From Armatimonadota bacterium (GTDB lineage: Bacteria > Armatimonadota > Zipacnadia > Zipacnadales > JABUFB01): DNA of 64,000 nucleotides. The position numbers were made by a program, and so were the translations under genes. The notes beneath the pieces are model-generated. The model was not told the DNA's origin and did not search any database. It saw nothing but the letters and a program-made list of their open reading frames with translations. Below, one piece after another: positions 40,597 through 59,876 of this stretch (positions are counted from its first letter, which is position 1; every line of letters begins with the position of its first letter). The stretch spans positions 1 through 64,000 of the forward strand of contig JABUFB010000012.1 of assembly GCA_013314775.1 (NCBI GenBank), given 5' to 3'.

Positions 40597-40984
40597 GTCT
40601 GTGTCCTCCTGAAGCCCTCTGCGCAGATGCGGTTCGGGCTTGCTCGTCGGTTGTGCGTCGGGATATTCGCCGTCGGTGGCCTTGCACCTTCCGGACCGGG
40701 CGCGGACGCGTTACCGGGTTGCGGACTTGCCAAGCCGGACAGCGCACATGGAGTGAAGTTCGTTGTCCATGGGCGCCGTGTCTGGTAAACTCTCGCCCGT
40801 CCCCATATTTGCGGCTCCGCGGGCGCAGTCAGGAACCCCCATCAGATGTCGGGCAGTACTCTTCTGGCATCACCTGGCGCAGGTCTCGCGCCAAGAAACG
40901 CACAACGGCGGCGCCGGCTATAAGAAGGGCAGCCGCTCATTTCAGGCGAATACCGGACCCATACCTGCCCATTACAGGAGGACG
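40597..40984. other. Divergent intergenic region, aminotransferase and ABC importer
   Basis: These 388 bp separate two divergent genes and should contain both promoters and possibly an operator. One candidate promoter for the importer was found at 40763-40791. No clear palindromic operator longer than 6 bp was noticed. Frames reading through it are open by chance. Confidence 0.5.
40763..40791 (+). promoter_or_regulatory. Candidate promoter for the ABC importer genes
   Basis: TTGTCC at 40763-40768, a 17-bp spacer, and TAAACT at 40786-40791; each box matches the sigma70 consensus at 4 of 6. It lies about 190 bp upstream of ATG 40985. Confidence 0.3.
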
Positions 40985-43771
40985 ATGTTGACACTCCTAG
41001 CCATTGCCATTCGAAGCGCCCGCTTGCAGGCCGTCTGTGCGGCGGGCATCGTGCTATTGCTGGCGCTCGCTTGCTCCCCCGTTACTGCCGGGTATATCGA
41101 GGACCGCGATGGCACTACGGTCATTCACGTCACCGTATTCGGGTTGCCGGACCCGAGCAACACCGACACTTTCAACCGCGGAGAGGTGGCGGCCGTTCGC
41201 GCCTTTCAGGAGCGGTTCCCGGAGATATTCGCGGAACGCTATCGCGAAAAGTACAAGGCTAATCCTGCCAAGTACGGGAACCACAACTGGGACAAGGTTG
41301 AGGTCGAGCTTCAGCAGTTCTCCGGCATCAAGGTGGAGGGCGTGGAGAACGACCTGCTGGCCATTGCCGGCGGAATGGCTCCTGACGTGCTGTATCTCAA
41401 CTTTCGGCGTTCGGACAACTATATCCAGAATCGCTTCCTGTATCCCCTGGACAAGCCTGAGGATAACTACCTCACCAGCATGACCCAGGAGGAGATCGAC
41501 TTCCGCATCCACCCCAAGCTCATGCCGGTCATTCACCGCAAGGGGCCGGATGGCGAGAAGCACGTCTGGGCGCTGCCATATGGCGGCGCGCTGGGCAAAG
41601 TCCTTCTGTTCCGCAAGGACCTCTTCGACGCCAAGGGCATCCCGTATCCCACCGCTGATTGGACCTGGGACGACCTCATTGCAGCCGCGAAGAAGATTAC
41701 GGACCCGGCCAAGGGCATCGATGGCATGCTTCTGGGACGGGGAAAACACGAAAGCTGGTACTGGGTTACCTTCTTGTGGTCCGCCGGCGGCGAAGTCATG
41801 GTATACAACGAGGAGAAGGACGAGTGGCGCTGCACCTTCGACGGCCCGGAGGCAGCGGAAGCGCTGGACTTCTACACGCGCCTGAGCGCTGAAAAGTGGA
41901 TTGACGCCGAGGGCAAAGTACGCCGGGGATACTCATCCAAGGACGTGGAGAACGCTTACCAGAAGTGGGACCGCGGCCAGATTGGGATGATGTTGTCGTA
42001 CATCGACGAAAAGGTTTTCGCCACCATCAACCCCGAGGTCACCGGGATGGTGCCGGTGCCGAAGGGCCCCACGGGCAAGCGCGGCGGGGAGCTCAACAGC
42101 CGCATGATGTCCCTCTTCAGCGAGATCAAGGACCCGGCGGTCCGTGACGCGGCCTGGGAGTACATGCGCTTTTACGAGAGCGAGGATGCTGTCCGCATAA
42201 AGACGCGGATCATGGTGGAGGGAGGCCTTGGGCGCTTCGTGAACCCCAAGTACCTGCGGATGTTCGGGTACCCGGAAGTGGAGCGTCTGGCGCCGAAGGG
42301 CTGGAGCGAGACCTTCAATATCGCCATCGCCACCGGTCGCCCCGAGCCGTACGGCCGCAACAGCAACGTGGCCTACGACCTGATGACCTTCCCGATCCAG
42401 AAGGCCGAGCAGATGGCGATCAACGATCAGCTTCCCTCGGATAAGAAGGAGCGGCTCAAGGTATTGGGTCAACTGCTCAAGGAGGGCTGCGCCCGGGCGA
42501 ACGAAGAGATGATCGGCCTGATTACCCCGGCCGAGCGCCTGAAACGCCGCATCTGCGCGACCGTCATGCTTTTGGCTCTTGCGGTCACAATGATCCTGGT
42601 GTTCCGCAAGATCCTCCAGGCATTTACACCGGACACGGCGGACATGCAAAAGCGCAAGGGACTGAATCTTGCCCGCTACGGCTGGCCCATGGTCCTGCTT
42701 ATTCCGGCGGTGGGCACGATCCTGGTCTGGCAGTACGTGCCCGTGCTCAAAGGCTCGCAGATGGCTTTCTACGACTACCGCCTGCTGGGGGACTCGCCCT
42801 GGGTGGGGGTGGACAATTTCGGCGACCTGCTGTTCAACCGATATTGGTGGACCGCAGTGTGGAACTCGGTGCGCTACAGTTTCCTGGTGCTGGCGCTGAC
42901 TTTCCTGCCGCCCATCGTGCTGGCGATCATGCTGCAGGAAGTCCCCCGCGCAACGCTCCTGTTCCGAACCATCTACTATCTGCCGGCTGTCATCAGCGGC
43001 CTGGTTACCGTTTTGCTCTGGAAGCAGTTTTATGAACCTTCGGAGACCGGGACGCTGAATGCCGTGGTGATGCACATCCCGGCGATTGTGTACCTGGCCG
43101 TGGGGCTGACTATCCTCGCTCTGGCGGTAACCTTCGCCCGCCGCCTGCTGTATCACGATATGCGTGTGGGTGCGGCGTGTTTCGTGGCCGCGGGCCTTCT
43201 CCTGCTGGCCACTTGTGTCTCGCTGGCCGCCCCGATTCTGTTCCGATCTGACGAGACGCTGATGCAGAGCATCCTGCTGATTCCCTCGCGCCTGCTCGCG
43301 GTGGTGCCGGAGCCGTACCGGTGGCTCAGCAACCCAAAATCCGCGATGCTGTCGTGTGTAATCCCCATGGTCTGGGCAGGGATGGGCCCCGGCTGTCTCA
43401 TCTACCTTGCGGCTCTCAAGGGCATTCCGGATGAGTACTTCGAAGCGGCGGAGATCGATGGGGGCAATTTCATGGATCGCATCATTCACGTGGTGTTCCC
43501 GATCCTGCGCCCGCTGATCACCATCAATTTCGTGGGCGCCTTTATCGCCTCCTGGTACTCCGGCGCCGGGAATATCCTGGTGATGACCGGCGGTGGTGCG
43601 GGGACTGAAGTGGTAGACCTGCATATCTGGTTCAAGGCATTCACATTCCTGAAATTCGGCCCCGCCACGGCGATGGCGTGGGTCCTGGGATTCATGCTCA
43701 TCGGCTTCACGCTGCATCAGCTTCGCATGCTGTCGCGCCTGGAGTTCCGCACTACCGGCGCCAAGGAGTAA
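40985..43771 (+). CDS. Sugar ABC importer: solute-binding protein fused to MalF-type permease
   Basis: A 928-residue fusion. After a hydrophobic N-terminus (VCAAGIVLLLALACSPVTAG) comes a family 1 extracellular solute-binding domain, about residues 35-500, with LLAIAGGMAPDVLYLNF, HVWALPYGGALGKVLLFRKD and WTWDDLIAAAKKITDP. A membrane segment near 530 (ICATVMLLALAVTMILVF) leads to a permease core with ARYGWPMVLLIPAVGTIL. The EAA loop EYFEAAEIDGGNFMDRI lies near residue 818, where the ATPase docks. ATG 40985 has AGGAGG upstream. The binding protein is thus tethered to its channel. No ATPase gene is nearby; a shared one elsewhere is likely. Confidence 0.9.
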   Translation: MLTLLAIAIRSARLQAVCAAGIVLLLALACSPVTAGYIEDRDGTTVIHVTVFGLPDPSNTDTFNRGEVAAVRAFQERFPEIFAERYREKYKANPAKYGNHNWDKVEVELQQFSGIKVEGVENDLLAIAGGMAPDVLYLNFRRSDNYIQNRFLYPLDKPEDNYLTSMTQEEIDFRIHPKLMPVIHRKGPDGEKHVWALPYGGALGKVLLFRKDLFDAKGIPYPTADWTWDDLIAAAKKITDPAKGIDGMLLGRGKHESWYWVTFLWSAGGEVMVYNEEKDEWRCTFDGPEAAEALDFYTRLSAEKWIDAEGKVRRGYSSKDVENAYQKWDRGQIGMMLSYIDEKVFATINPEVTGMVPVPKGPTGKRGGELNSRMMSLFSEIKDPAVRDAAWEYMRFYESEDAVRIKTRIMVEGGLGRFVNPKYLRMFGYPEVERLAPKGWSETFNIAIATGRPEPYGRNSNVAYDLMTFPIQKAEQMAINDQLPSDKKERLKVLGQLLKEGCARANEEMIGLITPAERLKRRICATVMLLALAVTMILVFRKILQAFTPDTADMQKRKGLNLARYGWPMVLLIPAVGTILVWQYVPVLKGSQMAFYDYRLLGDSPWVGVDNFGDLLFNRYWWTAVWNSVRYSFLVLALTFLPPIVLAIMLQEVPRATLLFRTIYYLPAVISGLVTVLLWKQFYEPSETGTLNAVVMHIPAIVYLAVGLTILALAVTFARRLLYHDMRVGAACFVAAGLLLLATCVSLAAPILFRSDETLMQSILLIPSRLLAVVPEPYRWLSNPKSAMLSCVIPMVWAGMGPGCLIYLAALKGIPDEYFEAAEIDGGNFMDRIIHVVFPILRPLITINFVGAFIASWYSGAGNILVMTGGGAGTEVVDLHIWFKAFTFLKFGPATAMAWVLGFMLIGFTLHQLRMLSRLEFRTTGAKE

Positions 43772-43834: not shown

Positions 43835-45742
43835 ATGCCAATCATCTCAAAGATAGACCGCAAGAGCCCCAAGACCCGGCTGCTCATCGGCTTTATCTAC
43901 ATAGTGCTGAGCGCCGGGGCAGTGACGATGCTGTACCCCTTCGGTCTCATGCTCGCGGGGAGCACGAAGAGCGCGGTGGACTTTCCGCACAACGTGATTA
44001 TCCCCAGGTTCCTGGTGGATGACGAAGCGCTCTACCGCAAGCACATAGAGGGACTGTTCAATGAGTCCCTGGAGCAGATGCTCATCGCCTATGGCGTCCC
44101 GGCGACTTCATTTCTCACGCTGGAGATGCCGACGGACGTGAACACCAAGCTGGTCTCTGAGTGGCGGGCGTTCCTGGACGAGGAGAAGCCACCGTTCTAC
44201 TCGTACGCCGTGGGTTACCTGCACGCTCCGGTCTCCCGCGGGGTGCTGCCAAGCGCACTGCGCCAGTTCAAGGCACAGCTCATAGAGCGCTTCAACGATG
44301 ACATCACCGAAATGAACCGGGAGCTGGGGACGGAGTTCGTCAACTGGAATGCCTTCTGGATGCTCCCAGAGGACTACACGCTACGGCGCAACAAGCCGGG
44401 TAATGGGCCGCTTGATCTGGCCTTCCGCGAGTTCAAGCAGACCCTCCCTGTGGAACAGCGCACCTACTTCAGCATCGAAGGCTTCTATAAGAAGTCCTTC
44501 CTCAAGAGCCAGTACACAGACGACATTGAGGCCTACAACAAGGAGCACGGGACGAAGTACGCAAGTTGGGACGAGATTCACCTGAGCAGACGCCTGCCCC
44601 AGGGCACGGCAAAGGAGCGCGAGGACTGGGAGACCTTCGTCCGCACGATTCTGAACATGCTCTGGATCAAAGCGGACCCCGAGGCCGAACCTTTCTACCA
44701 GCGCTTCTTGCACAGCAAGTACCAGGACATCGCGCACCTGAACCGCAATTACGAGACGAACTATAAGTCCTTCGCGGAGGTGCGGCTGTTTGATGAGCTG
44801 CCAACTGAGGGCCTGGTGCTCTCGGACTGGGACGCTTTCGTGCAGGGCTGGAAAGACCCGGATACCGGGCAGGAGCACAAGCTGCCGGTGTCGATGATCT
44901 CCGTCCACAGCGTGGACTTCATGTTCCGCGACTACCTGGAGCGCAAGTTCGGGACGCTTGAACGCGCCAATTCCGAATTGGGGCTTCGGGCAGCCTCCTG
45001 GCTGGATATCCTGCCCCCGCAGCAGGCTTGGCACCTGGAGGCCTTCCAGGCCATGAAAAGGCCCCTGCGCAAGGAGTTCATGACTCGGAACTTCGTGACC
45101 GTGGGCGACTACGTGATCCGTCACGGCCGTGGTATCTTCAATACGGTGGTCTACTGCACGCTGGCGATTCTCGCAGCGCTGATCGTCAACCCGCTAGCTG
45201 CCTACGCACTGAGCCGGTACCGACCACCCTGGTCATACAAGGTGCTGCTGTTTCTGATGCTCACCATGGCCTTCCCACCGATGGTGACGCAGATCCCCGT
45301 GTTCCTCATGTTGCGCGAGTTCAACCTGCTCAACACTTTCTGGGCACTGCTGCTGCCCGGACTTGCCAACGGTTATATGATCTTCCTGCTCAAGGGGTTC
45401 TTCGATTCGCTGCCCCAAGAGCTGTACGAGAGTGCAGCGCTTGACGGCGCGGGCGAGCTGCGCATTTTCTGGCAGATCACTATCCGGCTAAGCCAGCCGA
45501 TCCTGGCGGTCATCGCCCTGCAGGCCTTTACCCACGCTTACAGCAATTTCATGATGGCACTGCTCATCTGCCAGGACGAGCGCATGTGGACCCTCATGCC
45601 ATGGCTCTACCAGCTTCAGCAACGTAGCGGTCAGGGCGTGATTTTCGCGTCCCTGCTGATTGCCGCCATCCCGACCTTTGTGATCTTCGCGCTGTGCCAG
45701 AATGTGATCATGCGCGGGATCGTGGTGCCGGTGGAAAAATAG
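43835..45742 (+). CDS. MalG-type sugar ABC permease with large repeat-containing external insert
   Basis: A 635-residue partner permease. The first membrane segment is near residues 18-40 (LLIGFIYIVLSAGAVTMLYP). The usual core resumes only near 432 (GIFNTVVYCTLAILAALIV). The EAA loop ELYESAALDGAGELRIF is near 528 and the C-terminal segment ends RGIVVPVEK. The intervening insert of about 390 residues carries four repeats of the form Y-x-D-I-x3-N-x3-GT-x-Y-x-SW-x-EI, at about residues 152, 226, 295 and 372. Ordinary MalG is about 280-300 residues. The insert should lie outside the membrane. It lies 63 bp after the fusion permease gene, so both are probably one operon. Confidence 0.9.
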   Translation: MPIISKIDRKSPKTRLLIGFIYIVLSAGAVTMLYPFGLMLAGSTKSAVDFPHNVIIPRFLVDDEALYRKHIEGLFNESLEQMLIAYGVPATSFLTLEMPTDVNTKLVSEWRAFLDEEKPPFYSYAVGYLHAPVSRGVLPSALRQFKAQLIERFNDDITEMNRELGTEFVNWNAFWMLPEDYTLRRNKPGNGPLDLAFREFKQTLPVEQRTYFSIEGFYKKSFLKSQYTDDIEAYNKEHGTKYASWDEIHLSRRLPQGTAKEREDWETFVRTILNMLWIKADPEAEPFYQRFLHSKYQDIAHLNRNYETNYKSFAEVRLFDELPTEGLVLSDWDAFVQGWKDPDTGQEHKLPVSMISVHSVDFMFRDYLERKFGTLERANSELGLRAASWLDILPPQQAWHLEAFQAMKRPLRKEFMTRNFVTVGDYVIRHGRGIFNTVVYCTLAILAALIVNPLAAYALSRYRPPWSYKVLLFLMLTMAFPPMVTQIPVFLMLREFNLLNTFWALLLPGLANGYMIFLLKGFFDSLPQELYESAALDGAGELRIFWQITIRLSQPILAVIALQAFTHAYSNFMMALLICQDERMWTLMPWLYQLQQRSGQGVIFASLLIAAIPTFVIFALCQNVIMRGIVVPVEK

Positions 45743-45968
45743 GGGACAGGCCGGCCCGGTCTTCCGGAAGCGTTGCGTCCCGGCGCGCGTGTGGCAGACA
45801 CGTCGGGCCGAAGCGTATTCGTGCCGGTCGTCGGTTTGAGGAACTGCCCGGCGATTCACCAAATGCCTCGCAAGCAGGCGAAAAGCATGCGGGGGGATAT
45901 ACCGCCCGACGCCAATGTGCCTGGTGCGCGATGACGTTCGACGTACGAATTCCGTCGGAGACCAGACA

Positions 45969-48032
45969 ATGACTGAACTACGCTTTGAGCCGTATCGCCT
46001 CCCAGCTGCCGAGGTCGGGCCGGAGAATCCGCTGCCCAACTTCCGCTCGCCGCAACACGACTCGAAGATCGACCCCGCTGCCCACAATATCCCGCCGGAA
46101 GACCTGGACGGCCTGGGGTATGCCACGGGTTTTCGCGTGCTACCGTGGCGGATGCAGGACGGGTACTCGCGCCGCCGCGAGGTCCGTGAACTGCCCTCTT
46201 TCGTGCTGGAGAACGAGGTCCTGAGGGTAAGGGTGCTGCCGGGCGTGGGTGGGAAGGTGGCAGACATTTACCACAAGCCGCTGCAGCGGGAATTGATCTA
46301 CCGCAATCCTGTGTTCCAGCCAGGAAACCTGGCGCTGCGCAATGCCTGGACCAGCGGCGGGATCGAGTGGAACACCGCGCAGATCGGGCATCATTACCTG
46401 GCCTGCTCTCCGGTGCACTGCGCGCGAGTCGATGGCCCCGACGGCAGCCCGGTGCTGCGCATCTACGCCTGGGAGCGGGTGAAGCGGTTCCCGTACCACA
46501 TCGACCTGCACCTGCCGCCGGACTCGCCCTTTCTGTTCGCTCGGGTGCGTCTCATCAATCCCCACGACCACGAACTGCCCATGTACTGGTGGTCGAACAC
46601 CGGGATGGTTGAGCTTGAGGGCGGACGGGTCATCGCCCCCGCGGATACCACTTACCACGGAATTACCGTGCACGACTGCCCGGTGATCAAGGGCCTGGAC
46701 TACAGCTATCCGACCCAGGTTCGCCGAGCGTATGACCTGTTCTTCCGCATCCCGCCGGAGCGCCGCCCATGGGAGATTTACGTGGACCGCGACGGGTGCG
46801 GCTATGTTCACACATCCACCGCGCGGCTCAAGGGGCGCAAGTTATTTGCCTGGGGAATGGCTCAGGGCGGACGGCGCTGGAGCGAGTACCTGGCGGTTCC
46901 AGGCAAGCCCCACATGGAGATCCAGGCGGGGCTCATGTACACGCAGTCCCACAGCGCCCGGATGCCTGCGAGGACCCAGTGGACCTGGACGGAAGCGATG
47001 GGGTACTTCGAGGGCGACGCGACGCGGCTGCATTCCGAGAACTGGCAAGAGGCGTACTCAGAGGGCGAGCGGGTACTCGAAGCCATGCTGCCTGGCGACG
47101 AACTTGAACGTCTTGACGCCGAGTTCGCCCGGACTGCGGAGCGAGTGCCGGAAGAAGTGCTGTTCCGGGGTCACGGCTGGGCGGCGTTGGAGCAGTTGCG
47201 CGCACAGGCAGCAGGTGATGAGACGGGCATACCACCGGAATTGCCCTTCGATGAAGGCGACCTTGGCCCGGATCAAGAGCCATGGCTTCAGCTTCTGCGG
47301 ACCGGCACCTTTCCGGCCCGCGACCCGAAGGAAGACCCCGGCCAGTTTCAGATTCAGCCCGAGTGGCAAGCGTTGCTGCGGAAGTCGGTGGACGAGGGGG
47401 CGAGTGACCACTGGTTGGGTTGGCTCCATCTGGGCGTCATGGCCATGGAGGCGGGCGACACCGAAGAGGCAAAGGCAGCCTGGGAGACCTCTTTCGAGCG
47501 CACCCCAAACGGTTGGGCATTACGCAATCTGTCGGTGATCGAGACCCGCGCCGGTCGAGACGATGCGGCGGCGGAGCTGCTGGCACGAGCGGTGAAGACC
47601 GGTCCAGCCGTTCCCGCGCTTGTGGCCGAGTATGTCGCGGTTCTCTCGCGCCGGAAGGATTTTGAGGCCATCGACGCTCTGCTGCGGAGCCTGCCCGAGG
47701 AGGTCAGGCAGGCCGAACGGTTGAGACTTGCAGCCGGTTGGGCAGCGCTCCACGCGGGCAGGTTCGGGGAGGTCGAGGAGATTCTGTCGGGCGAATTCGC
47801 CACGATCCAGGAGGGCGAACTGACGCTCAGCGAGTTGTGGTTCGGGCTGCAGGAGCGCAAGCTGGCATTGTCCGAAGGGATTGAGATCGACGACGAGCTC
47901 AGGGCACGAGTGAGGCGGGACTTCCCACCGCCGTACGCCATCGATTTCCGTATGTCTGCCGAGGGTGACGATAAGTACATACCACCACAGGCGCAGCGCT
48001 GCTCGGGCGCCTGCGGAAGAACTCCAGAGTGA
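45969..48032 (+). CDS. DUF5107 and TPR-repeat protein
   Basis: A 687-residue protein without signal peptide, probably cytosolic. Residues about 60-330 look like the DUF5107 beta-sandwich (galactose-mutarotase-like), with LENEVLRVRVLPGVGGKVADI, SGGIEWNTAQIGHHYLA and YWWSNTGMVELEGGRVIAP. The C-terminal third has helical TPR-like repeats (GWLHLGVMAMEAGDTEEAKAA, LARAVKTGPAVPALVAEYVA). Family members are thought to act on or bind carbohydrates. ATG 45969 has GGAGA upstream. It follows the importer by 226 bp on the same strand, supporting a sugar-related role. Confidence 0.85.
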   Translation: MTELRFEPYRLPAAEVGPENPLPNFRSPQHDSKIDPAAHNIPPEDLDGLGYATGFRVLPWRMQDGYSRRREVRELPSFVLENEVLRVRVLPGVGGKVADIYHKPLQRELIYRNPVFQPGNLALRNAWTSGGIEWNTAQIGHHYLACSPVHCARVDGPDGSPVLRIYAWERVKRFPYHIDLHLPPDSPFLFARVRLINPHDHELPMYWWSNTGMVELEGGRVIAPADTTYHGITVHDCPVIKGLDYSYPTQVRRAYDLFFRIPPERRPWEIYVDRDGCGYVHTSTARLKGRKLFAWGMAQGGRRWSEYLAVPGKPHMEIQAGLMYTQSHSARMPARTQWTWTEAMGYFEGDATRLHSENWQEAYSEGERVLEAMLPGDELERLDAEFARTAERVPEEVLFRGHGWAALEQLRAQAAGDETGIPPELPFDEGDLGPDQEPWLQLLRTGTFPARDPKEDPGQFQIQPEWQALLRKSVDEGASDHWLGWLHLGVMAMEAGDTEEAKAAWETSFERTPNGWALRNLSVIETRAGRDDAAAELLARAVKTGPAVPALVAEYVAVLSRRKDFEAIDALLRSLPEEVRQAERLRLAAGWAALHAGRFGEVEEILSGEFATIQEGELTLSELWFGLQERKLALSEGIEIDDELRARVRRDFPPPYAIDFRMSAEGDDKYIPPQAQRCSGACGRTPE

Positions 48033-48502: not shown

Positions 48503-49948
48503 TCAGCACCAGGGCTCACCGCGTGCCATCATGACGGTGGCCAGCAGGTGGTGCATGACTGACAGGGCGCGGATCATGCGCTCTATGCGGCCTTCGTCTT
48601 CCGCCTGGCCAAGGAGGGGCTGCAGTTCGGCCAGCGCCCCTCGGATGCCGGCCCCGCAGGCCACCCGCCCGGGAGCATCCAGGTAGGGCTCGGCGAGGAA
48701 CGTGGCGGCGTCGGGCTGGGTGCCGAACAGGTTGCCGACGATGAACTCGCCGGGCATCTCCAGGTGCCAGGTGTGGTGGAACGCTTCCGCCTTCCACTGG
48801 CCGAAGTAGGCCTCCTCGACAGCGATGAAAACTTCCGCCAGCTTGCGGCGGACGTCGGCGCTGTGAGGTCGGTAGTAGACCTCGATGACTTCCTCCAGCA
48901 CGTCTCTGGCGTCCCTCCCCGGATCGCACATGATTCGTCCGGCGACTGAGCTGTTGACTTCCACGGCCGGGTTCACCATCGGGCCCTGATAGTAGAGGCA
49001 TGCGCGTGTGCCGTGCGCGTGGTGGTCCTTGAGATGGTTCGCCGCGCGCAACGGGTAGGCGAGGAAGTAGGACAGGCGGTCCTGCCGCGAGCCGTGATAG
49101 GACCACAGCCCGCCCGATGTCCCGTACGCGCAGTTCAGACGGGATACATCATCCCAGGAGATGTGCCGGCCGTGGTGGCCCTGATCCATGAAAATGTCGA
49201 TGTGATCGCTCAGTTCAATGATATGGGCCAGATCATCACCGGCGAGCTTCGGCTGCTGCCCTGTCTCGTCGATCGTGAATGGCGCCCAGCTGATGGGGCA
49301 GCTGTAGACGACGACTCCCGGGTGCCGGCTCTTGATGTAGTCGGCGGCACGGGCGTTGATGCGCGCGTTGTAGCCGACAACGCCGTACTGACCGGTACAT
49401 TCGGGGCACATGCAGTAGCCCAGGTCTGCTGATTCCAGATGCACGGCTCCGAAGTCGTGGCGCTGGAACATGGTGTCGATGATCTTTTCCACGTAGCGCC
49501 AGGACTTTTCTTTCGCACCGCACATGGCGTGTGGATGCGGGTTGCCTGTCTGATCCAGTCCGCGCACCGCGGGGTCTTCGCGGATGATGCGGTCGTAGCC
49601 CCAGGTCATGAGCCCCAGGGGCAGAGACATGCGAATGCCTCTGCTTTCCGCTGCCCGAAAGATGATGTCGAGCTGCCGGTTGCGCTCTTCGTCGCCGAAG
49701 GCACTGACGATGTCCGGCGGGTATTCCCCCGTCGCATACAGCCCGAAAGAGTCCAGGAACTGGTATCCGGCTTCGCTGATGACATCGAGGGTGCGCACGA
49801 CACCCTCCACGGTGCGATCGTCGCAGTGAGGGGCAGGCCAATTCTGCAGAGGCAGGGCGGAGTTGCGCATGTCATTGATCCAGCAGCCGAAGGCGATACG
49901 GTACTGGTATGGGTCGTGCGTGGTCGGGTCGGTCACATTCCCGGGCAT
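48503..49948 (-). CDS. Putative glycoside-hydrolase-like TIM-barrel protein
   Basis: A 481-residue protein without signal peptide. YRIAFGCWINDMRNSALP opens the barrel. SRGIRMSLPLGLMTWGYDRI is a barrel strand, and AVHLESADLGYCMCPECTG carries an acidic strand end followed by C-x-C-x2-C, reminiscent of the metal cysteines in GH42-type enzymes. DHIDIFMDQGHHGRHISWDD and RAANHLKDHHAHGTRACLYY are later strands. No exact family could be named and the catalytic acid is a guess (Glu in HLES). ATG 49948 has AGGAGG upstream. It stands on the opposite strand to most neighbours. Confidence 0.7.
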   Translation of the reverse strand: MPGNVTDPTTHDPYQYRIAFGCWINDMRNSALPLQNWPAPHCDDRTVEGVVRTLDVISEAGYQFLDSFGLYATGEYPPDIVSAFGDEERNRQLDIIFRAAESRGIRMSLPLGLMTWGYDRIIREDPAVRGLDQTGNPHPHAMCGAKEKSWRYVEKIIDTMFQRHDFGAVHLESADLGYCMCPECTGQYGVVGYNARINARAADYIKSRHPGVVVYSCPISWAPFTIDETGQQPKLAGDDLAHIIELSDHIDIFMDQGHHGRHISWDDVSRLNCAYGTSGGLWSYHGSRQDRLSYFLAYPLRAANHLKDHHAHGTRACLYYQGPMVNPAVEVNSSVAGRIMCDPGRDARDVLEEVIEVYYRPHSADVRRKLAEVFIAVEEAYFGQWKAEAFHHTWHLEMPGEFIVGNLFGTQPDAATFLAEPYLDAPGRVACGAGIRGALAELQPLLGQAEDEGRIERMIRALSVMHHLLATVMMARGEPWC

Positions 49949-52300: not shown

Positions 52301-53458
52301 ATGACTGATCTCGAGCGCTTCAAGGCGGTGGCGCATTTCGAGCAGCCCGACTACGTGCCGATCTTCGGCTTCCCCGGCGCGCCTGGTATGAGTTGGGGCT
52401 GCATGCGCCTGACCTATGAGCGGCTTCTCGCCACCGGCATGCCCGACATAGGCGGAAGCTTCCACGGCTGGCAGTACCACAGTCCCGAGGGCTGGATGCG
52501 CTACTGGGGCACAACGGGGCCGATCGGGATCGATTTTGGGCTTTCCTGGGGTGCCGAGGGGTTTCGGTCTACGAAGCGCGTGGAGGACGGGTTCGAGATC
52601 ATCGAGTGCGAGGACGGGTCAGTGACCCGGCAGGTCATCGACAATGACATCACCTACAGCATGCCGGAGTTCGTGCGCTACCCGGTGCGGGACCGTGACT
52701 CCTGGGAGCTGTACAAGAAGCGACACACGCCGACGCAGTTCATGTCCAGCGAGGACATGGAAGCTAACTGCCGGCGGTTCGACCAGCGGGATAGGCCGCT
52801 GTGCATCGGGGCCGGCGGCGGATACGGGATGGTGCGCGGATTGATGGGCCCGGCGGCGGCCAGCCTGGCCTTCTACGATGACCCGGAACTGGTGCACGAC
52901 ATGGTGGGCTGGCAACTGGAGCAGTTGCGACGCGATGTGTTCCCGCTCATCGAGCGCCTGCGACCGGAGATCGTGGCGATAGGCGAAGACCTGTGCTACA
53001 ACCACGGGATGCTGCTGTCCCCCACGCAGTTCCATGAGTTCTTCGGCGCTCACTACCAGGCAGTGTGCGACTGCGCCCATGCGAACGGCGCGGACCTTGT
53101 TGCGGTTGATACTGACGGAAATGCCATGGAGTTCACCGGCGTCGCGGCCTCATACGGCGTGAATGGCATGTACCCGTATGAGGTGAAAGCGGGCAACGAC
53201 CTGTTCGCATTGAGGCAGCGACACCCCGACTTCGTTCTGTTTGGATGGCTTGAGAAGGAGAGCGTCAACGAGGGCAATGAAGCCATGATCGAAGCGGAGA
53301 TCATGAGCAAAGTGCCGCCGCTGCTGGCACGGGGAGGCTACTTCCCCAATGGAGACCACGGCATCCAGCCGCTGGTCACATTTCCGGCCTTGTGCAGGTT
53401 CATGACATTGCTGCATGAGGTCTGCAACAATCCCGAGGGCGAGTTCCCGCGGGTGTAA
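52301..53458 (+). CDS. Uroporphyrinogen-decarboxylase-family protein (not HemE)
   Basis: A 385-residue URO-D-fold protein beginning MTDLERFKAVAHFEQPDYVP. AAASLAFYDDPELVHDMVGW, EIVAIGEDLCYNHGMLLSP and ANGADLVAVDTDGN match the MtaA/MtbA-like URO-D group. True HemE has an N-terminal RxPVWxMRQAGR motif, absent here, so heme synthesis is not its job; the genome appears to use the siroheme route instead. Many relatives sit beside Gfo/Idh proteins in saccharolytic uncultured bacteria, with unknown reactions. Its start follows the preceding stop without a gap. Confidence 0.88.
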   Translation: MTDLERFKAVAHFEQPDYVPIFGFPGAPGMSWGCMRLTYERLLATGMPDIGGSFHGWQYHSPEGWMRYWGTTGPIGIDFGLSWGAEGFRSTKRVEDGFEIIECEDGSVTRQVIDNDITYSMPEFVRYPVRDRDSWELYKKRHTPTQFMSSEDMEANCRRFDQRDRPLCIGAGGGYGMVRGLMGPAAASLAFYDDPELVHDMVGWQLEQLRRDVFPLIERLRPEIVAIGEDLCYNHGMLLSPTQFHEFFGAHYQAVCDCAHANGADLVAVDTDGNAMEFTGVAASYGVNGMYPYEVKAGNDLFALRQRHPDFVLFGWLEKESVNEGNEAMIEAEIMSKVPPLLARGGYFPNGDHGIQPLVTFPALCRFMTLLHEVCNNPEGEFPRV

Positions 53459-53493: not shown

Positions 53494-55911
53494 CTACTCG
53501 GCCTCCCAGGTCAGGGCGGCGTACTGGGCCAGTTCGCTCAAGCGGACTTCCGCTCCGTTGGGCACCGCGTGGAACTCCACCGCTGGTTCGCCCTCCGGGC
53601 AGTGCAGTTTCGCGCTTTCGGCCCGCAGGGAGACCCCCGGCAGGCTGAGCCGGATGACCAGGTCCTTCGCCGGAACGCTGTGCTCCTGGGCCTGCTGCTC
53701 GAGCTCGGGCAGGTCCGGATGAAGCTCGGCGGCGTAGTTGATGAGATGCAGCGCGATTCGCTTGCCGCTGCGGGTGAGATTGGCGCAGACGAGATCGGCG
53801 CCCTGGCCGGAGATCTCAAGGGAGCGACTTTCGGGGAGCAGCGGCTGGAGCAGCCCAAGGATGGCCTCTTCATCCGGGCCGAAGGGTTGGTTCATCGGGG
53901 CGACGCTTAGTCCGCGTGCAGCGGAGGTCTTCACCCACCAGCCCTGCTCCAGCATATTCTCGAGTTCGTAGCCCTCCTGGTATGGGTACCAGACACCGGC
54001 GCCGTCGGACTCCGCTGCCCCGAAGACCTTGCCTTCTTTGTCTTGGAAGCGGTTGCCCAGCAGGTTCTCGGTGATTTGCTTTTTTTCCTCGTCCCAGACG
54101 CCGAAGCGCACATCCTTGAACCACGCGGTGCCACCATGGCCGCGGAAGAGAATGTGCACGTTGGCGCTGCGCATGGGCCGCTCGTCTGCGATGATGGTGC
54201 GCGAGAACTGCCAGTCGTGGGTGCCGGTGTCGAAGGTGGCCACCTGGCCCCAGAGATTGGAGCCGTCAGCACGGGTGAAGTCCACATAGAGGGAGTAGTT
54301 GCTGTCCCGAGTGCCCGTGACGCCCTCGGACTTCGACCAGCCCTCAATGGCATACTTGACCGGCTCGGTGTGGTTCAGGATTACATTCTGCGAAGCGCCC
54401 AGTTGCTTGACCTCGAACAGCTTCTCCAGGGAGTAGTACACCTTGCCCTTGCCCAGGTCGCGTCTAGCGCGAGGCTCATCGGTAGCCGGGGCGATGGCGA
54501 ACTCGGGGCGGTTTTCGCGGGGCTGCCAGTCAGGGGTAAGAGTGGCGGCGTTGTCGCCGAGAACAAGAGCCTGCCCTCCATCGCGGACGTACTCATTCAC
54601 GGCGGCGCAGGCTTCGTCGCTGAGCACGCGGCTGTCCAGGAGAACCAGGGCCGGCAGGTCGCCCAAGACTTCAGCGGTCAGGCCCACATCGGAGACGATC
54701 CGGTACGGGATGTGGCGCTTCATCAACGCCTGGGTGAAGGCGTACAACTGGGTGCGTGAGGCGCTGCTGAGGAGGTACGACTTCGCGGAGAAGAGCAGGC
54801 CGACTTCGGCAATCTCCCGGGCGCCCGTGAGCGCGGGTTGCAGATCTCGCGCGGTGCGGAAGTAGGCTTTGACGAGCTCCTGGTGCTCTTTGAGAAGATT
54901 CCCGGTGCCGGGGCCTCCAAGTCCCAGCCAAGAGACCGCGCCTTCGCTGATGATCTCACTGAGTGCCACGCGCACCCGGTCGGCAGCCATGCGTCCGTGG
55001 TGGATGGTGCCCTTCTCGTCGGGCAGGAGGTGGTAGGTGACAGACATCGCAACCGGTTCGCGGTCGGGGCGGCGAGAGAGAACATGGGCCAGCTTGAGCC
55101 ACGGAATCTGGGTGCTGGCGGGAGGGAACGGCCCCCAGGTGGTGCCCTCGATGCACATCAGGTCGAAGTGATCGCCGTATGCCCACTGGTAGGTGCTGCC
55201 ATTGTCGTGGTGCCAGGTGCCGTCATTGGCGAAAGCGGGGTTGATCTCGCGCGCAGCGCGCTCAAGGCCCTTCAGGAACGCCATGACGCGCTGAATGCGG
55301 AACTCCCGCAGGAGCATGCGCACCCGCAGATCACCGGAATTGGAAGCGGCGAGCAGGTCCAGACCTTCGATGGCGTGTTTGGGCGCCCAGTCTGCCCACG
55401 CGGCCTTGCAGTGGTCGCAGAAGCAGTTCTCGTAATGGGACGCGAAGTCGATGTGGCAGCCGTCGTAACCGTCGCGGGCCTTCTTGCGGAACTCTTCCTG
55501 CGAGCGCTCGATCCACAGGGGGTTATTGATGCAGGCGGTCCAGCCGTACTGCCCGACGGTAGGGAAGAGGGGGTCGAAGGGGCGGGCGAAGGATCCGTCC
55601 GCGTGAACCGCCGCCATGGCCTTGATGCGCTCTTCGGGCAGCCAGCGGCTGTCCATGTAGTTCATGGTGAACCAGGTGCGGGTCTTCAGGCCTGCCGCAT
55701 GGGCCAGTTCCGGGTTGACGCCGGTGACGCAGTTGACGCCGTTTTGCGCCCACATCTCCAGGCCCCCTGCATCCGCCGGAAGGCCCGAGATGAACAGTTC
55801 GCGCACCTGCCCGGGACGCCAGAAGGCGGATGGATCGTCCTGGGCAATCGCAGGTGTGAAGACGGTAGTGACTGCAAAGGCTGCGAGCGTTCGTGCAAGC
55901 CGGGTTTTCAT
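53494..55911 (-). CDS. Secreted GH42-like barrel protein with glutamine-amidotransferase-type domain
   Basis: An 805-residue exported protein: signal peptide MKTRLARTLAAFAVTTVFTP then AIAQ. The barrel contains TWFTMNYMDSRWLPEERIKA, GYDGCHIDFASHYENCFCDHC near residue 155-175 (C-x-C-x2-C as in GH42-type enzymes) and DLMCIEGTTWGPFPP. From about 390 a beta-galactosidase trimerisation-like domain follows: VGLLFSAKSYLLSS, LPALVLLDSRVLSDEACAAV, VRDGGQALVLGDNA. C-terminal beta domains complete it. ATG 55911 has AGGGAGA upstream; the frame open to 56142 is ignored. It probably acts on a glycan; substrate unknown. Confidence 0.8.
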   Translation of the reverse strand: MKTRLARTLAAFAVTTVFTPAIAQDDPSAFWRPGQVRELFISGLPADAGGLEMWAQNGVNCVTGVNPELAHAAGLKTRTWFTMNYMDSRWLPEERIKAMAAVHADGSFARPFDPLFPTVGQYGWTACINNPLWIERSQEEFRKKARDGYDGCHIDFASHYENCFCDHCKAAWADWAPKHAIEGLDLLAASNSGDLRVRMLLREFRIQRVMAFLKGLERAAREINPAFANDGTWHHDNGSTYQWAYGDHFDLMCIEGTTWGPFPPASTQIPWLKLAHVLSRRPDREPVAMSVTYHLLPDEKGTIHHGRMAADRVRVALSEIISEGAVSWLGLGGPGTGNLLKEHQELVKAYFRTARDLQPALTGAREIAEVGLLFSAKSYLLSSASRTQLYAFTQALMKRHIPYRIVSDVGLTAEVLGDLPALVLLDSRVLSDEACAAVNEYVRDGGQALVLGDNAATLTPDWQPRENRPEFAIAPATDEPRARRDLGKGKVYYSLEKLFEVKQLGASQNVILNHTEPVKYAIEGWSKSEGVTGTRDSNYSLYVDFTRADGSNLWGQVATFDTGTHDWQFSRTIIADERPMRSANVHILFRGHGGTAWFKDVRFGVWDEEKKQITENLLGNRFQDKEGKVFGAAESDGAGVWYPYQEGYELENMLEQGWWVKTSAARGLSVAPMNQPFGPDEEAILGLLQPLLPESRSLEISGQGADLVCANLTRSGKRIALHLINYAAELHPDLPELEQQAQEHSVPAKDLVIRLSLPGVSLRAESAKLHCPEGEPAVEFHAVPNGAEVRLSELAQYAALTWEAE

Positions 55912-55981
55912 GGGTGTCTCCCTGCAATCAATGGGGTTCCAGGCGCAACTGGCGATGGGCACACCGGCGAGAGAGCGGTGC

Positions 55982-56734
55982 TCATGGTGCCTGGAGTGTG
56001 ACCGCATCCGGGAAGGTGACGGTGAGGTCCAGGTGCAGCCTGTCGTCGGCGAAAACGTCTCTGCCGGGGTCTTCCATGATCGCCGGGAAGCGGATTTCGA
56101 AGACCTGCTGCTCCCACTGGCGCAGGTCCTGGATGACCACATCCGCCGCGGCCCGGAACTGGATCGTCATCGCTTGTGGCGTGCCTTTGGCAACCTCGAT
56201 CTTCGCTCCGTCCCCGCGCCAGAGCTGGAAGCCGCGTGTGCCCTGCTCCTCCGGCAGCGCGACGACCTCGGGGTCGTTGTCGGGCCGTGAGACCACGATC
56301 TCCTTCCCTGCGAACAGCGCTACCGGCAGAAGCACCGAGACCTGCACCCCACTGAGCTTCATGTCCGCGCCCATGGCGAGGTCGTAGGTCAAGTTCGCGC
56401 CTTGCGGCAGCGTGCGCACTGTCTCGACGAACTTGATGGCTGCACCCGCGGTGGTGTTGGGGATAGGCAAGCTCCCCGAGACTCGCTTCCCGGCGTTGCC
56501 CCGGAGGCTGCTTATCTGTCCCGTGGCGCTCTTCTGGGGCGCGTGCTGCCAGTTGGGACCATGAGCGTTGAGTTCTATGGCACCCGCGTCAACGCCGCCC
56601 CGGAAGATGGTGATCAGACCCGTGGGATCGAGCTTGAGTGTACATCCCTCTTGCGCGCAAGAGATGCTGGTGGACACGAGAAGCGTCAGGGCCACCAGGC
56701 CCGAGAGTATTGCGGACAAGCGGATGCGCTCCAT
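55982..56734 (-). CDS. Secreted hypothetical protein
   Basis: A 250-residue protein with signal peptide RLSAILSGLVALTLLVSTS followed by ISCAQEG. The rest is beta-rich (KLSGVQVSVLLPVALFAG, AMTIQFRAAADVVIQDLRQW, LHLDLTVTF), suggesting a beta-sandwich. ATG 56734 has GGGAGGA about 8 bp upstream. It lies 70 bp upstream of the secreted barrel gene on the same strand, so the two are probably an operon and may act on the same polymer. No known family is recognised. Confidence 0.7.
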   Translation of the reverse strand: MERIRLSAILSGLVALTLLVSTSISCAQEGCTLKLDPTGLITIFRGGVDAGAIELNAHGPNWQHAPQKSATGQISSLRGNAGKRVSGSLPIPNTTAGAAIKFVETVRTLPQGANLTYDLAMGADMKLSGVQVSVLLPVALFAGKEIVVSRPDNDPEVVALPEEQGTRGFQLWRGDGAKIEVAKGTPQAMTIQFRAAADVVIQDLRQWEQQVFEIRFPAIMEDPGRDVFADDRLHLDLTVTFPDAVTLQAP

Positions 56735-56938
56735 TGGTCTGTCCTCCCGCAGTCACGTTATTTCAGCACGGCCCGGCAGGAATGCCCAGGCACGGAGCGA
56801 ACTGGAACCAGTGACGACTTCTCGCACTGACGATTTCGTCGGTTCGCGGCTCAAACCCTTGTTGATGCTGGAACGTCTGCCATGCGGCGATGTTCTTACC
56901 ACAATAAGCGGGCCATCCTGGAAATGCTAACTCATCCA

Positions 56939-58495
56939 ATGAGACAGCCCATCCTGCCGGCCTCGATTCTTCTCGCACTCCTCATATCAGCCGCGGCTCT
57001 AGCGCAGGCAGTGGCTCCCTTCGAAAGTCAGGACTGGAGCGTGCCGGCCAGTGAACTCGATGGTCTGGTGCTTTCCGCGCTGCGCGAGAAGGCGATTGAG
57101 CCTGCATACCCGTGCTCCGATGAGGTTTTCCTGCGCCGGGCTTACCTGGATGTCATCGGCACCTTGCCCGAGCCTGAGCGGGTGCGCCGGTTCCTGCAGG
57201 ACGCGTCTCCAGACAAGCGCGCCCGGCTCATTGATGAGCTATTTCAGCGCGAGGAGTTCGCCGACTACTGGTCTCTCAAGTGGGGCGATCTGCTGCGCAT
57301 CAAGGCGGAGTTCCCGGTGAACCTGTGGCCCAATGCGGTGCAGGCTTACCACCACTGGGTGCGCGAGGCGATCCGCGAGAACCGCCCGTATGACCAGTTC
57401 GCGCGGGAGCTGTTGACGTCCAACGGCAGCAACTTCCGGGTGCCGCCGGTGAACTTCATGCGGGCCGTGCAGGGCAGGGAACCTTCGGCACTTGCGGAAG
57501 CCGTTGCCCTCACCTTCATGGGTACCCGCCTGGCGACCTGGGATGAAAAGCGGCGGGCGGACATGGCCGCATTCTTTTCGCGGGTCGCGTACAAGAAGAC
57601 CGGTGAATGGAAGGAAGAGATCGTCACCGTCAGCCTGGATGCAAACACCCCACTGGACGTCGTGTTCCCGGACGGCACGAAAACCACCATCGCGCCGGGG
57701 GATGACCCCCGCATTGCCTTTGCAGACTGGCTGACTGCGCCGGACAACCCGTGGTTTGCACGGAATATCGTGAATCGTATCTGGTCATGGCTCATGGGCC
57801 GGGGGATTATCCACGAGCCGGACGATATTCGCCCAGACAACCCGCCGTCCAATCCAGAGCTTCTCGCGTACCTGGAGCGAGAGCTGGTCACGTCGGGCTT
57901 CGATCTGCAGCACATCTACCGGCTGATCCTGAACTCACGCACATATCAGCAGTCCTCGATCCCGCGCAGTGAGAACCCGCGCGCGCCGGCGCTGTTCGCA
58001 TACTATCCGGTGCGGCGACTGGGCGCCGAGGTGCTGGTGGACGCCCTCAACTGGATCGGTGGCACGGGCGAGGGGTATGTCAGCCCGATACCGGAACCCT
58101 TCACTTTCGTGCCTGAGAGCCAGAGGACCATCGCTCTCTCGGACGGGAGCATCACCAGCCCGTTCCTGGAAATGTTCGGGCGACCCGCGCGAGATACCGG
58201 GCTGGAATCCGAGCGGAATCTGCAGCCGTCGGATGCGCAGATGCTGTATCTGCTGAACTCCAGCGACGTGCAACGCTGCATTGCCCGTAGTCCGCGTCTG
58301 CGCGCGATCGCCAAGGATGCGGAGGGGAACAGCGCAGAGCTGATCCGAGAGACCTATCTGCTGCTGCTGTCGAGATACCCCACGGCCGGGGAGCAAGCCC
58401 TTGCCGAAGAGTACTGGCAGAGCAGTCCGGGCACGGCGGCGACGGACCTGGCGTGGTCATTGATCAACAGCGCGGAGTTTCTCTACCGGCATTGA
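56939..58495 (+). CDS. Secreted DUF1549/DUF1553 protein, compact form
   Basis: A protein of about 518 residues with signal peptide MRQPILPASILLALLISAA. DUF1549 part: FLRRAYLDVIGTLPEPERVR, LIDELFQREEFADYWSLKWG and DLLRIKAEFP. DUF1553 part: IAFADWLTAPDNPWFARNI, VNRIWSWLMGRGIIHEPDD, LILNSRTYQQSS. Relatives in Planctomycetota are usually longer and often carry cytochrome-like domains, missing here. The start is uncertain: ATG 56939, 56924 and 56882 are all in frame. It pairs with the DUF1501 gene 25 bp downstream, a partnership seen across these phyla; function unproven. Confidence 0.88.
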   Translation: MRQPILPASILLALLISAAALAQAVAPFESQDWSVPASELDGLVLSALREKAIEPAYPCSDEVFLRRAYLDVIGTLPEPERVRRFLQDASPDKRARLIDELFQREEFADYWSLKWGDLLRIKAEFPVNLWPNAVQAYHHWVREAIRENRPYDQFARELLTSNGSNFRVPPVNFMRAVQGREPSALAEAVALTFMGTRLATWDEKRRADMAAFFSRVAYKKTGEWKEEIVTVSLDANTPLDVVFPDGTKTTIAPGDDPRIAFADWLTAPDNPWFARNIVNRIWSWLMGRGIIHEPDDIRPDNPPSNPELLAYLERELVTSGFDLQHIYRLILNSRTYQQSSIPRSENPRAPALFAYYPVRRLGAEVLVDALNWIGGTGEGYVSPIPEPFTFVPESQRTIALSDGSITSPFLEMFGRPARDTGLESERNLQPSDAQMLYLLNSSDVQRCIARSPRLRAIAKDAEGNSAELIRETYLLLLSRYPTAGEQALAEEYWQSSPGTAATDLAWSLINSAEFLYRH

Positions 58496-58520
58496 ACCGG
58501 GAGAAAGGTGGGGAGCACAG

Positions 58521-59876
58521 ATGTCGAACGAAGGCGGCACGGGGGGGATCAGCAGGCGCGATGCCCTGAAGCGGATGATTCTCGGCGGAGCGGGGCTGGC
58601 GCTTCTCGATGGCAGCCTTGCCTTCCTGCTCCCCGGGAAGGCGCATGCGGCCGAGGCAGCCCTGCCAGCGAAGGCCAAGTCGGTGATCCAGATTTGGCTC
58701 TGGGGTGGCCCGTCGCACCTGGACACTTTCGACCCCAAGCCGGACGCAGGATATGACTACTGCGGCCCCCTGAACAAGCCCATCGAGACCAATGTGCCCG
58801 GGGTATTCATCGGCCAACTGCTGCCCCAGTTAGCTCAGCAGGCGGACAAGTACTCGATTATCCGAAGCATGACCCACGGGAACAACGGGCACGAGACAGC
58901 GGCGTATATCGTCCAGACTGGCCACCAGCCGGGGGAGAGACTGGTATATCCGTCTATCGGCGCGCTGGTCTCGAAATTCAAGGGTTACGAACACGGGTAC
59001 ACATCGCTGGTTCCGCCGTATGTGGTGCTCACCACGCCGCAGGGACGCTTCGATGAGGCTGGGTTTCTCGGGCCGCGGTACAAGCCTTTCGCAACTGGCG
59101 GCAATCCGGCGGCGGCGCGGTTCGTGGTGGAGGGCGTTGTGGCGGAGGGCATCACCGAAGAGCACCAGCGCAGGCGGCGCTCCCTGCGCGATTCCCTGGA
59201 TACGCTGGCGCAAGCCATGCCTGATGATCCGCAGCTTGCGGCGCTGGAAGAGGCCCGGGGGAACGCTTACGAAATGATCCTGGGAGATGGCAGCAAGCTG
59301 TTCGACCTGTCCCAGGAGGACACCGAACTGCGCAACCGCTACGGGCGCAATACCTTCGGGCAGTCATGCCTCATGGCGCGAAGGCTGGTAGCTGCAGGCG
59401 TCCCCTACGTGACCATCAACTACGGCGGCTGGGACACCCACAAACAGCACTTCGAGACCATGCGCTGGAAGCTCCCGGAGATGGACCGGGCGGTTGCAAC
59501 GCTTCTGCAGGACCTGGCCGAGCGGGGGTTGCTGGACAGCACCATCGTCTGGTGGAGCGGAGAGTTCGGGCGCACCCCCAGGGTCCAGTGGGAAGCGCCC
59601 TGGAATGGCGGACGGTCACACCACGGGGCGTGTTTTTCGGCAATGGTTGCGGGAGGCGGGTTCCGCGGCGGCCACGTTGTGGGCGCCTCCGATGCGAAGG
59701 GGGAGTATGTGGCGGAGCGGCCGGTGTCCGCACCGGACCTGCTGGGGAGCATGTGCCAGTTACTGGGCATCGATCCCGACGGCCCCTTGCCCAACCCGCG
59801 CGGGCTGGACCTGAAGGTTATGCCTCTTAGCGAAAAGCCCAATGAGGGCGCGGGCCGCCTGACGGAGATCATGTAA
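58521..59876 (+). CDS. Tat-exported DUF1501 protein
   Basis: A 451-residue protein. The twin-arginine signal ISRRDALKRMILGGAGLAL at residues 10-28 predicts Tat export. IQIWLWGGPSHLDTFDPKP, SIIRSMTHGNNGHETAAYIV and WWSGEFGRTPRVQWE show the DUF1501 core, which has an alkaline phosphatase/sulfatase-like fold with metal-binding Asp and His residues. ATG 58521 follows GTGGGGAGC. It almost always follows a DUF1549/1553 gene, as here. Substrate unknown. Confidence 0.92.
   Translation: MSNEGGTGGISRRDALKRMILGGAGLALLDGSLAFLLPGKAHAAEAALPAKAKSVIQIWLWGGPSHLDTFDPKPDAGYDYCGPLNKPIETNVPGVFIGQLLPQLAQQADKYSIIRSMTHGNNGHETAAYIVQTGHQPGERLVYPSIGALVSKFKGYEHGYTSLVPPYVVLTTPQGRFDEAGFLGPRYKPFATGGNPAAARFVVEGVVAEGITEEHQRRRRSLRDSLDTLAQAMPDDPQLAALEEARGNAYEMILGDGSKLFDLSQEDTELRNRYGRNTFGQSCLMARRLVAAGVPYVTINYGGWDTHKQHFETMRWKLPEMDRAVATLLQDLAERGLLDSTIVWWSGEFGRTPRVQWEAPWNGGRSHHGACFSAMVAGGGFRGGHVVGASDAKGEYVAERPVSAPDLLGSMCQLLGIDPDGPLPNPRGLDLKVMPLSEKPNEGAGRLTEIM

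Follow-up and report, generated by a model that had tools for sequence, protein, structure and literature searches.

A MalG-type permease with a five-repeat extracytoplasmic insert and a binding protein-fused MalF-type partner in an Armatimonadota genome

A MalG-type permease gene (positions 43835..45742, plus strand; 635 aa, stop included) carries, between its first two membrane helices, an insert of about 390 residues (about 43-430; 43961..45124, plus strand) that consists of five diverged repeats, and it lies directly downstream of a gene encoding a solute-binding domain fused to a MalF-type permease. Both genes were found in a stretch of 64,000 nt, here called the window. The architecture and position of the insert and its pairing with the fused partner are well supported. 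By a slight balance of probability, the best explanation is that the two proteins belong to a CUT1 oligosaccharide importer, whose MalG P1 domain serves as a scaffold and dock for the tethered binding domain. Type I importers are usually pictured as a compact membrane pair with a free binding protein.

The gene product is a MalG-type CUT1 ABC permease by its core domain, its EAA-type motif, and the adjacent MalF-type partner and binding protein. Pfam detected a BPD_transp_1 domain (PF00528) at residues 455-622 (56.4 bits), and NCBIfam models of the MalG/UgpE type matched from residue 430 on (430-630), under their equivalog cut-offs. Against the PDB, the core matched AlgM2, SugB and MalG by sequence, and the full-length model matched the solved MalG (2r6g_G) with a Foldseek E value of 2.5e-7. 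The stretch ELYESAxLDGAGE (about residues 530-543; 45422..45463, plus strand) is conserved in the columns of the permease alignment, with A534 invariant and G538 nearly so, and we take it, from its sequence, to be the EAA-type coupling motif of MalG. By hydropathy, TM1 occupies residues 16-34 and the membrane helix that follows it 433-451, with no hydrophobic segment in between. The net charge is +4 before TM1, +3 after TM2 and -11 in the insert; thus, the positive flanks (positive-inside rule) and the topology of homologous MalG indicate that the insert lies outside the membrane. An external insert of about this size at this place had been proposed in the initial annotation, and hydropathy, charge and homology all agree with it.

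The partner gene (40985..43771, plus strand) encodes 928 aa if translated from the ATG at 40985, while the open frame itself opens at 40763. The protein begins with an N-terminal signal or anchor; next come, according to Pfam, an SBP_bac_1 domain and a MalF-type permease. Between conserved membrane parts of this protein lies a variable region (residues about 696-772) with two additional hydrophobic segments; the more distant homologues align with the sequence to both sides of this region and not across it.

Pairing of the insert-bearing permease with an SBP-fused permease, named as a check when the sequence was first read, was borne out in a wide set of genomes. At 76 of 80 loci, which are the best 80 of 564, the insert gene is preceded by a homologue of the fusion; of the remaining four loci, two (L080, L114) have less than 250 bases of upstream sequence, and two (L099, L129) have enough and lack the fusion. 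The upstream fusion is split into two open frames at three loci (L103, L125, L137), and several others are cut by contig ends. Among 151 genomes of the phylum, the insert was detected in 64 (E <= 1e-10), the fusion in 75 (E <= 1e-30) and both in 62, giving a Fisher p of about 1e-26 on the assumption, suggested by the genomes named in both searches, that these covered the same set. On this assumption, two genomes have the insert without the fusion (G130, G145), and 13 have the fusion without the insert; twelve of these 13 possess a short-insert relative, and the other (G133, 78% complete) has none. A smaller set of 17 hand-chosen genomes gave the same picture at E <= 1e-30, with the fusion in 7/7 genomes carrying the insert and in 0/10 lacking it. 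The two genes are on different contigs in G056 and G057 and are not adjacent in G116 either. Some insert-lacking genomes (e.g. G047) hold open frames of SBP-plus-MalF length with weaker matches to the fusion, which suggests that there are other SBP-MalF fusions without the insert and that fusion does not require it.

The five repeats are about 70-75 aa each, with an anchor spacing of about 77, 74, 69 and 77, and were delimited on the plus strand by profile comparison and a repeat HMM: R0 (residues 60-128; 44012..44218), R1 (137-205; 44243..44449), R2 (213-281; 44471..44677), R3 (282-350; 44678..44884), which bears the best GH42 match by Pfam and VIA-align, and R4 (359-427; 44909..45115), whose final helices run toward TM2 in the model. 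All ten repeat pairs had a profile-profile score above every one of 60 column-shuffled controls (0/60 reached the observed score), from the weakest pair, R0-R1 (19.2 vs a shuffled maximum of 15.8), to the strongest, R2-R3 (77.7 vs 16.6). Four copies had been placed earlier at about residues 152, 226, 295 and 372; these places are real, but the count was one short, since the first copy, R0, had been missed. Profile comparison of R0 with R3 gives 39-41 (shuffled maximum 20), and R0 scores 54.9 bits with the repeat HMM, the training set of which included the window copies. The motif printed with the four copies was too strict: no match was obtained with two loosened regular expressions based on it, and the copies share rather a degenerate pattern, roughly F/Y-x3-L-x3-[YF]-...-L-N-x3-G-T-x-[YF]-x-S-[WF]-x-E-I. 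The additional L-x3-LP and DW-x2-FV elements noted in its copies 2 and 3 can be seen by reading the sequence.

The repeat HMM was trained on units from 17 of 81 sequences (the permease of the window and those of the best 80 of 564 loci). Above 8 bits it finds at least five units in all 81, namely five in 76 and six in 5; among the 64 sequences outside the training set, 59 have five and 5 have six. With shuffled proteins the score never exceeded 0.9 bits, and no unit in the partner proteins scored above 0. At L121, L122, L131, L134 and L135, where the inserts have 439 residues, the extra sequence is an apparent half-unit duplication inside R3. In the more distant members of a 19-sequence alignment, the HMM detects either two to four units that exceed 4 bits or weak units. 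A short-insert family (f21; 12 proteins, L162-L173) has one or two repeats detectable with the same HMM, so five repeats are not essential. In genomes with this shorter-insert subfamily (e.g. G056, G154, G174) the open frames are about 503-543 aa long.

The homologue set comprises the best 80 of 564 confirmed stretches at named loci, and the true range may be wider. Within this set the insert is 398-412 residues long at 72 loci and 420-453 at 8, and it is 39-65% identical to that of the window. The record titles of these 80 loci name Armatimonadetes, Ca. Zipacnadia, Lentisphaerae, Kiritimatiellae, Verrucomicrobia, Planctomycetes, Gemmatimonadetes and Latescibacterota, although most of the loci come from MAGs, the labels of which may err. 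One locus belongs to the strain Victivallis vadensis DSM 14823 (L132), and three (L096, L125 and L127) are on one complete chromosome. The closest named relative among the 80 is from a MAG of Ca. Zipacnadia (L064, 74% identity), Zipacnadia being a class of Armatimonadota. The genome that contains the window encodes two more insert-bearing permeases (G000:C4:24365-26272 and G000:C12:112824-114773), about 31-38% identical to that of the window, and each is a full paralogue with an adjacent SBP-MalF fusion. The insert has no model of its own in Pfam or NCBIfam, and no description of it was found in the open-licence PMC literature, which agrees with its having been called apparently undescribed. 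The available text of a paper on Zipacnadia (PMC10290634) does not contain the word permease.

Comparison with the maltose importer of Escherichia coli (MalFGK2-MalE, 2r6g) reveals a common plan, consisting of a MalF/MalG-type pair with an EAA-type motif and a matching MalG core. In E. coli, MalE contacts the P2 loop of MalF and the P1 loop of MalG, as the title of Daus et al. 2007 (cited in PMC3150292) puts it; P2 is given in PMC3150292 as residues 91-271 of MalF, and MalE is stated in PMC3328499 to bind its transporter tightly. The large loop of E. coli is in MalF and its MalE is a separate protein, whereas here the large domain, helical and repeated, occupies P1 of MalG, and it is MalF that carries the fused binding domain. 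The insert is not a MalF-P2-type loop, which would be a large periplasmic domain within MalF, since it lies between TM1 and TM2 of the MalG-type subunit. The periplasmic loops of the E. coli importer contact the binding protein, and by analogy the insert may do so here. Of solved sequences, those of the alginate importer AlgM1M2 (4tqu) come nearest to the MalG core (E 9e-16); they are also the nearest solved permease sequences to the MalF part (E 4e-13). The solved AlgM2 chain of 305 residues, however, is about half as long and has no room for a five-repeat insert. Binding domains tethered to a membrane subunit, as in the present importer, are described for ArtRQP (PMC11466899) and OpuA (PMC11065425), and a repeat insert on the other subunit is not among the features described in the available parts of these papers.

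The relation between insert and binding domain was approached by distance-based partial correlations over 67 paired sequences, a number too small for residue-pair coevolution. The divergence of the insert correlated most with that of the binding domain (0.38, bootstrap 0.18-0.55) and less with the MalG core (0.19) and the MalF core (0.10), and the insert-SBP value (0.30-0.44) was the insert's highest in 9/9 settings. When only variable columns were used, the link of the insert with the membrane part of MalF (0.32) came close to that with the binding domain (0.36), and thus shared fast evolution could explain part of the correlation. This tracking fits the docking of the tethered domain and is no proof of it. 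Together with the location of the insert in the P1 loop, which is a MalE contact in E. coli, it makes docking by the insert plausible, with a probability that we judge to be about even.

The importer would thus be a two-gene type I (CUT1) cassette. Its MalF-type half carries the solute-binding domain at the N-terminus, and in its MalG-type half the P1 loop between TM1 and TM2 has grown to a periplasmic domain of about 390 residues with five tandem alpha-rich units of about 75 residues. This domain might form a rigid scaffold beside the mouth of the pore, holding or orienting the tethered binding domain while capture and release take place, and would do the work of both MalF-P2 and MalG-P1 in the maltose transporter of E. 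coli. The fusion of MalE and MalF in Bdellovibrio is another case of a binding domain joined to a permease.

The ATPase of the system would be shared and encoded elsewhere, and the substrate would be an oligosaccharide. Conservation of the EAA-type sequence implies that an ATPase should couple. A single match to OB_MalK was found in the whole genome, on contig C14 and not adjacent to the permeases, and a neighbour cluster that is presumably ATPase-like, as recognised from its sequence, is present at no more than 4 of the 80 loci (best of 564); together these observations suggest a shared ATPase. No recurrent third gene that could serve as a clue to the substrate was found at the 80 loci (best of 564; 610 kept open frames), the next commonest neighbour cluster being present in 6 of them.

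A repeated fold, which had been set beforehand as a test, is seen in the AlphaFold2 model of the insert (81 sequences; pLDDT 91.8, pTM 0.89), judged by secondary structure and confidence values. Five times, a pair of helices is followed by a short turn and one more helix, with a three-residue strand after each of units 1-4. The model of the full-length permease (79 sequences; pLDDT 86.5, pTM 0.82) has the same elements in the insert; confidence is lower in its membrane part, where most blocks of ten residues are at 58-91. A Foldseek search of the insert alone against the PDB found nothing at E <= 0.001 (best 0.34). The best VIA-align superposition put one repeat unit on 6ptm, a GH42 enzyme, over 65 residues at 1.7 Å with Z 7.9, which is middling, as the tool advises caution under Z 8 (under about 13 where proteins are helical or made of repeats); 6y2k, the beta-amylase 1b90, 5gsm and others were superposed as well. 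Only model residues 238-319 were covered by at least one fifth of the VIA-align rows, so that the other repeats were barely compared with structures.

Matches by sequence point to the same kinds of enzymes. The insert profile found the GH42-type proteins 9ta3 (E 4e-5) and 7vkx (E 1e-4), the beta-agarase 4bq4 (E 0.002) and the beta-amylase 3voc (E 0.003) in the PDB; the Pfam GH42 model matched the permease with 25.8 bits (cut-off 21) over profile positions 150-190, that is 41/376 or about a tenth; and in the family, GH42 was matched in 15 and GH14 in 7 of 19 members at E <= 0.1. Elsewhere in the same genome, outside the three permeases, the insert profile gave ten matches, all of them single short stretches, in open frames of which 8/10 carry Pfam GH42, and no multi-unit repeat array. 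The resemblance of the repeats to a segment of GH42-type barrels, suggested earlier from the motif, is upheld by these profiles and by the superposition. Taken together, they support the view that each unit resembles one beta/alpha segment of GH42/GH14-type barrels, with descent possible in either direction. In GH42 beta-galactosidases, GH14 beta-amylases and agarases, one segment of about 65 residues superposes on the repeat unit and matches it by sequence; unlike these enzymes, the insert has no whole barrel, and the segment is repeated five times in a membrane protein. The complete (beta/alpha)8 catalytic domain of GH42 was not found, the insert model being a repeat array.

This resemblance to carbohydrate-active barrels also favours a live rival, in which the repeats themselves would be glycan-binding, concentrating a long oligosaccharide or threading it toward the binding domain or the pore, and the nearest solved transporter relatives do handle oligosaccharides (alginate AlgM1/AlgM2, arabino-oligosaccharide and maltose-type binding proteins). 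However, a single barrel segment is repeated while the rest of the barrel is absent, five residues inserted behind the LN helix in the best-scoring LacZ match are missing from the repeat, and the importer already has a binding domain, so that we regard glycan binding as unlikely. Still less probable is a role as an envelope scaffold that would link the importer with peptidoglycan, with the outer membrane, or with a secreted hydrolase or porin. The large, confidently folded domain with its variable repeat number would suit such a role, as would its occurrence mostly in records labelled as groups that are diderm, but the lack of a recurrent third gene at the 80 loci and the closest tracking of the insert with the binding domain argue against it. 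It is very improbable that the permease carries, in the insert, a fused GH42-type enzyme, whether degenerate or active, since, despite a GH42 score above the Pfam cut-off and GH42 matches in most family members, the profile is matched only in part, the model consists of five repeats of one segment, and the structure matches span only about 65 residues.

A broader proposal may be made, tentatively and with a probability somewhat short of even. The system might represent an undescribed class of importers, in which duplication of one glycosidase-barrel segment gave rise to a MalG P1 scaffold of five units that co-evolves with the MalF-fused binding domain, forming a permanently assembled machine for capture, docking and translocation, while the number of repeats (one or two detectable, five, or five and a half) would tune it in different lineages. 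A widespread family with a tethered binding protein and a scaffold at the MalE-contacting loop would offer a system for studying how docking geometry sets affinity and rate, and it suggests the reuse of a barrel segment as a repeat. It is also a warning that proteins matching the GH42 HMM over the Pfam cut-off can be permeases.

Several other features of the window were recorded. Rfam gave no matches in its 64,000 nt. Directly downstream of the permease is a gene for a protein with DUF5107 and TPR domains according to Pfam (45915-48032). Large open frames near the transporter genes (48503-49948 and 53494-56142 on the minus strand, 52301-53458 on the plus strand) had no Pfam match above the cut-off. 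Genes of the PSD1/PSCyt2 and DUF1501 types are located side by side at 56882-59876, a pairing familiar from planctomycetes.
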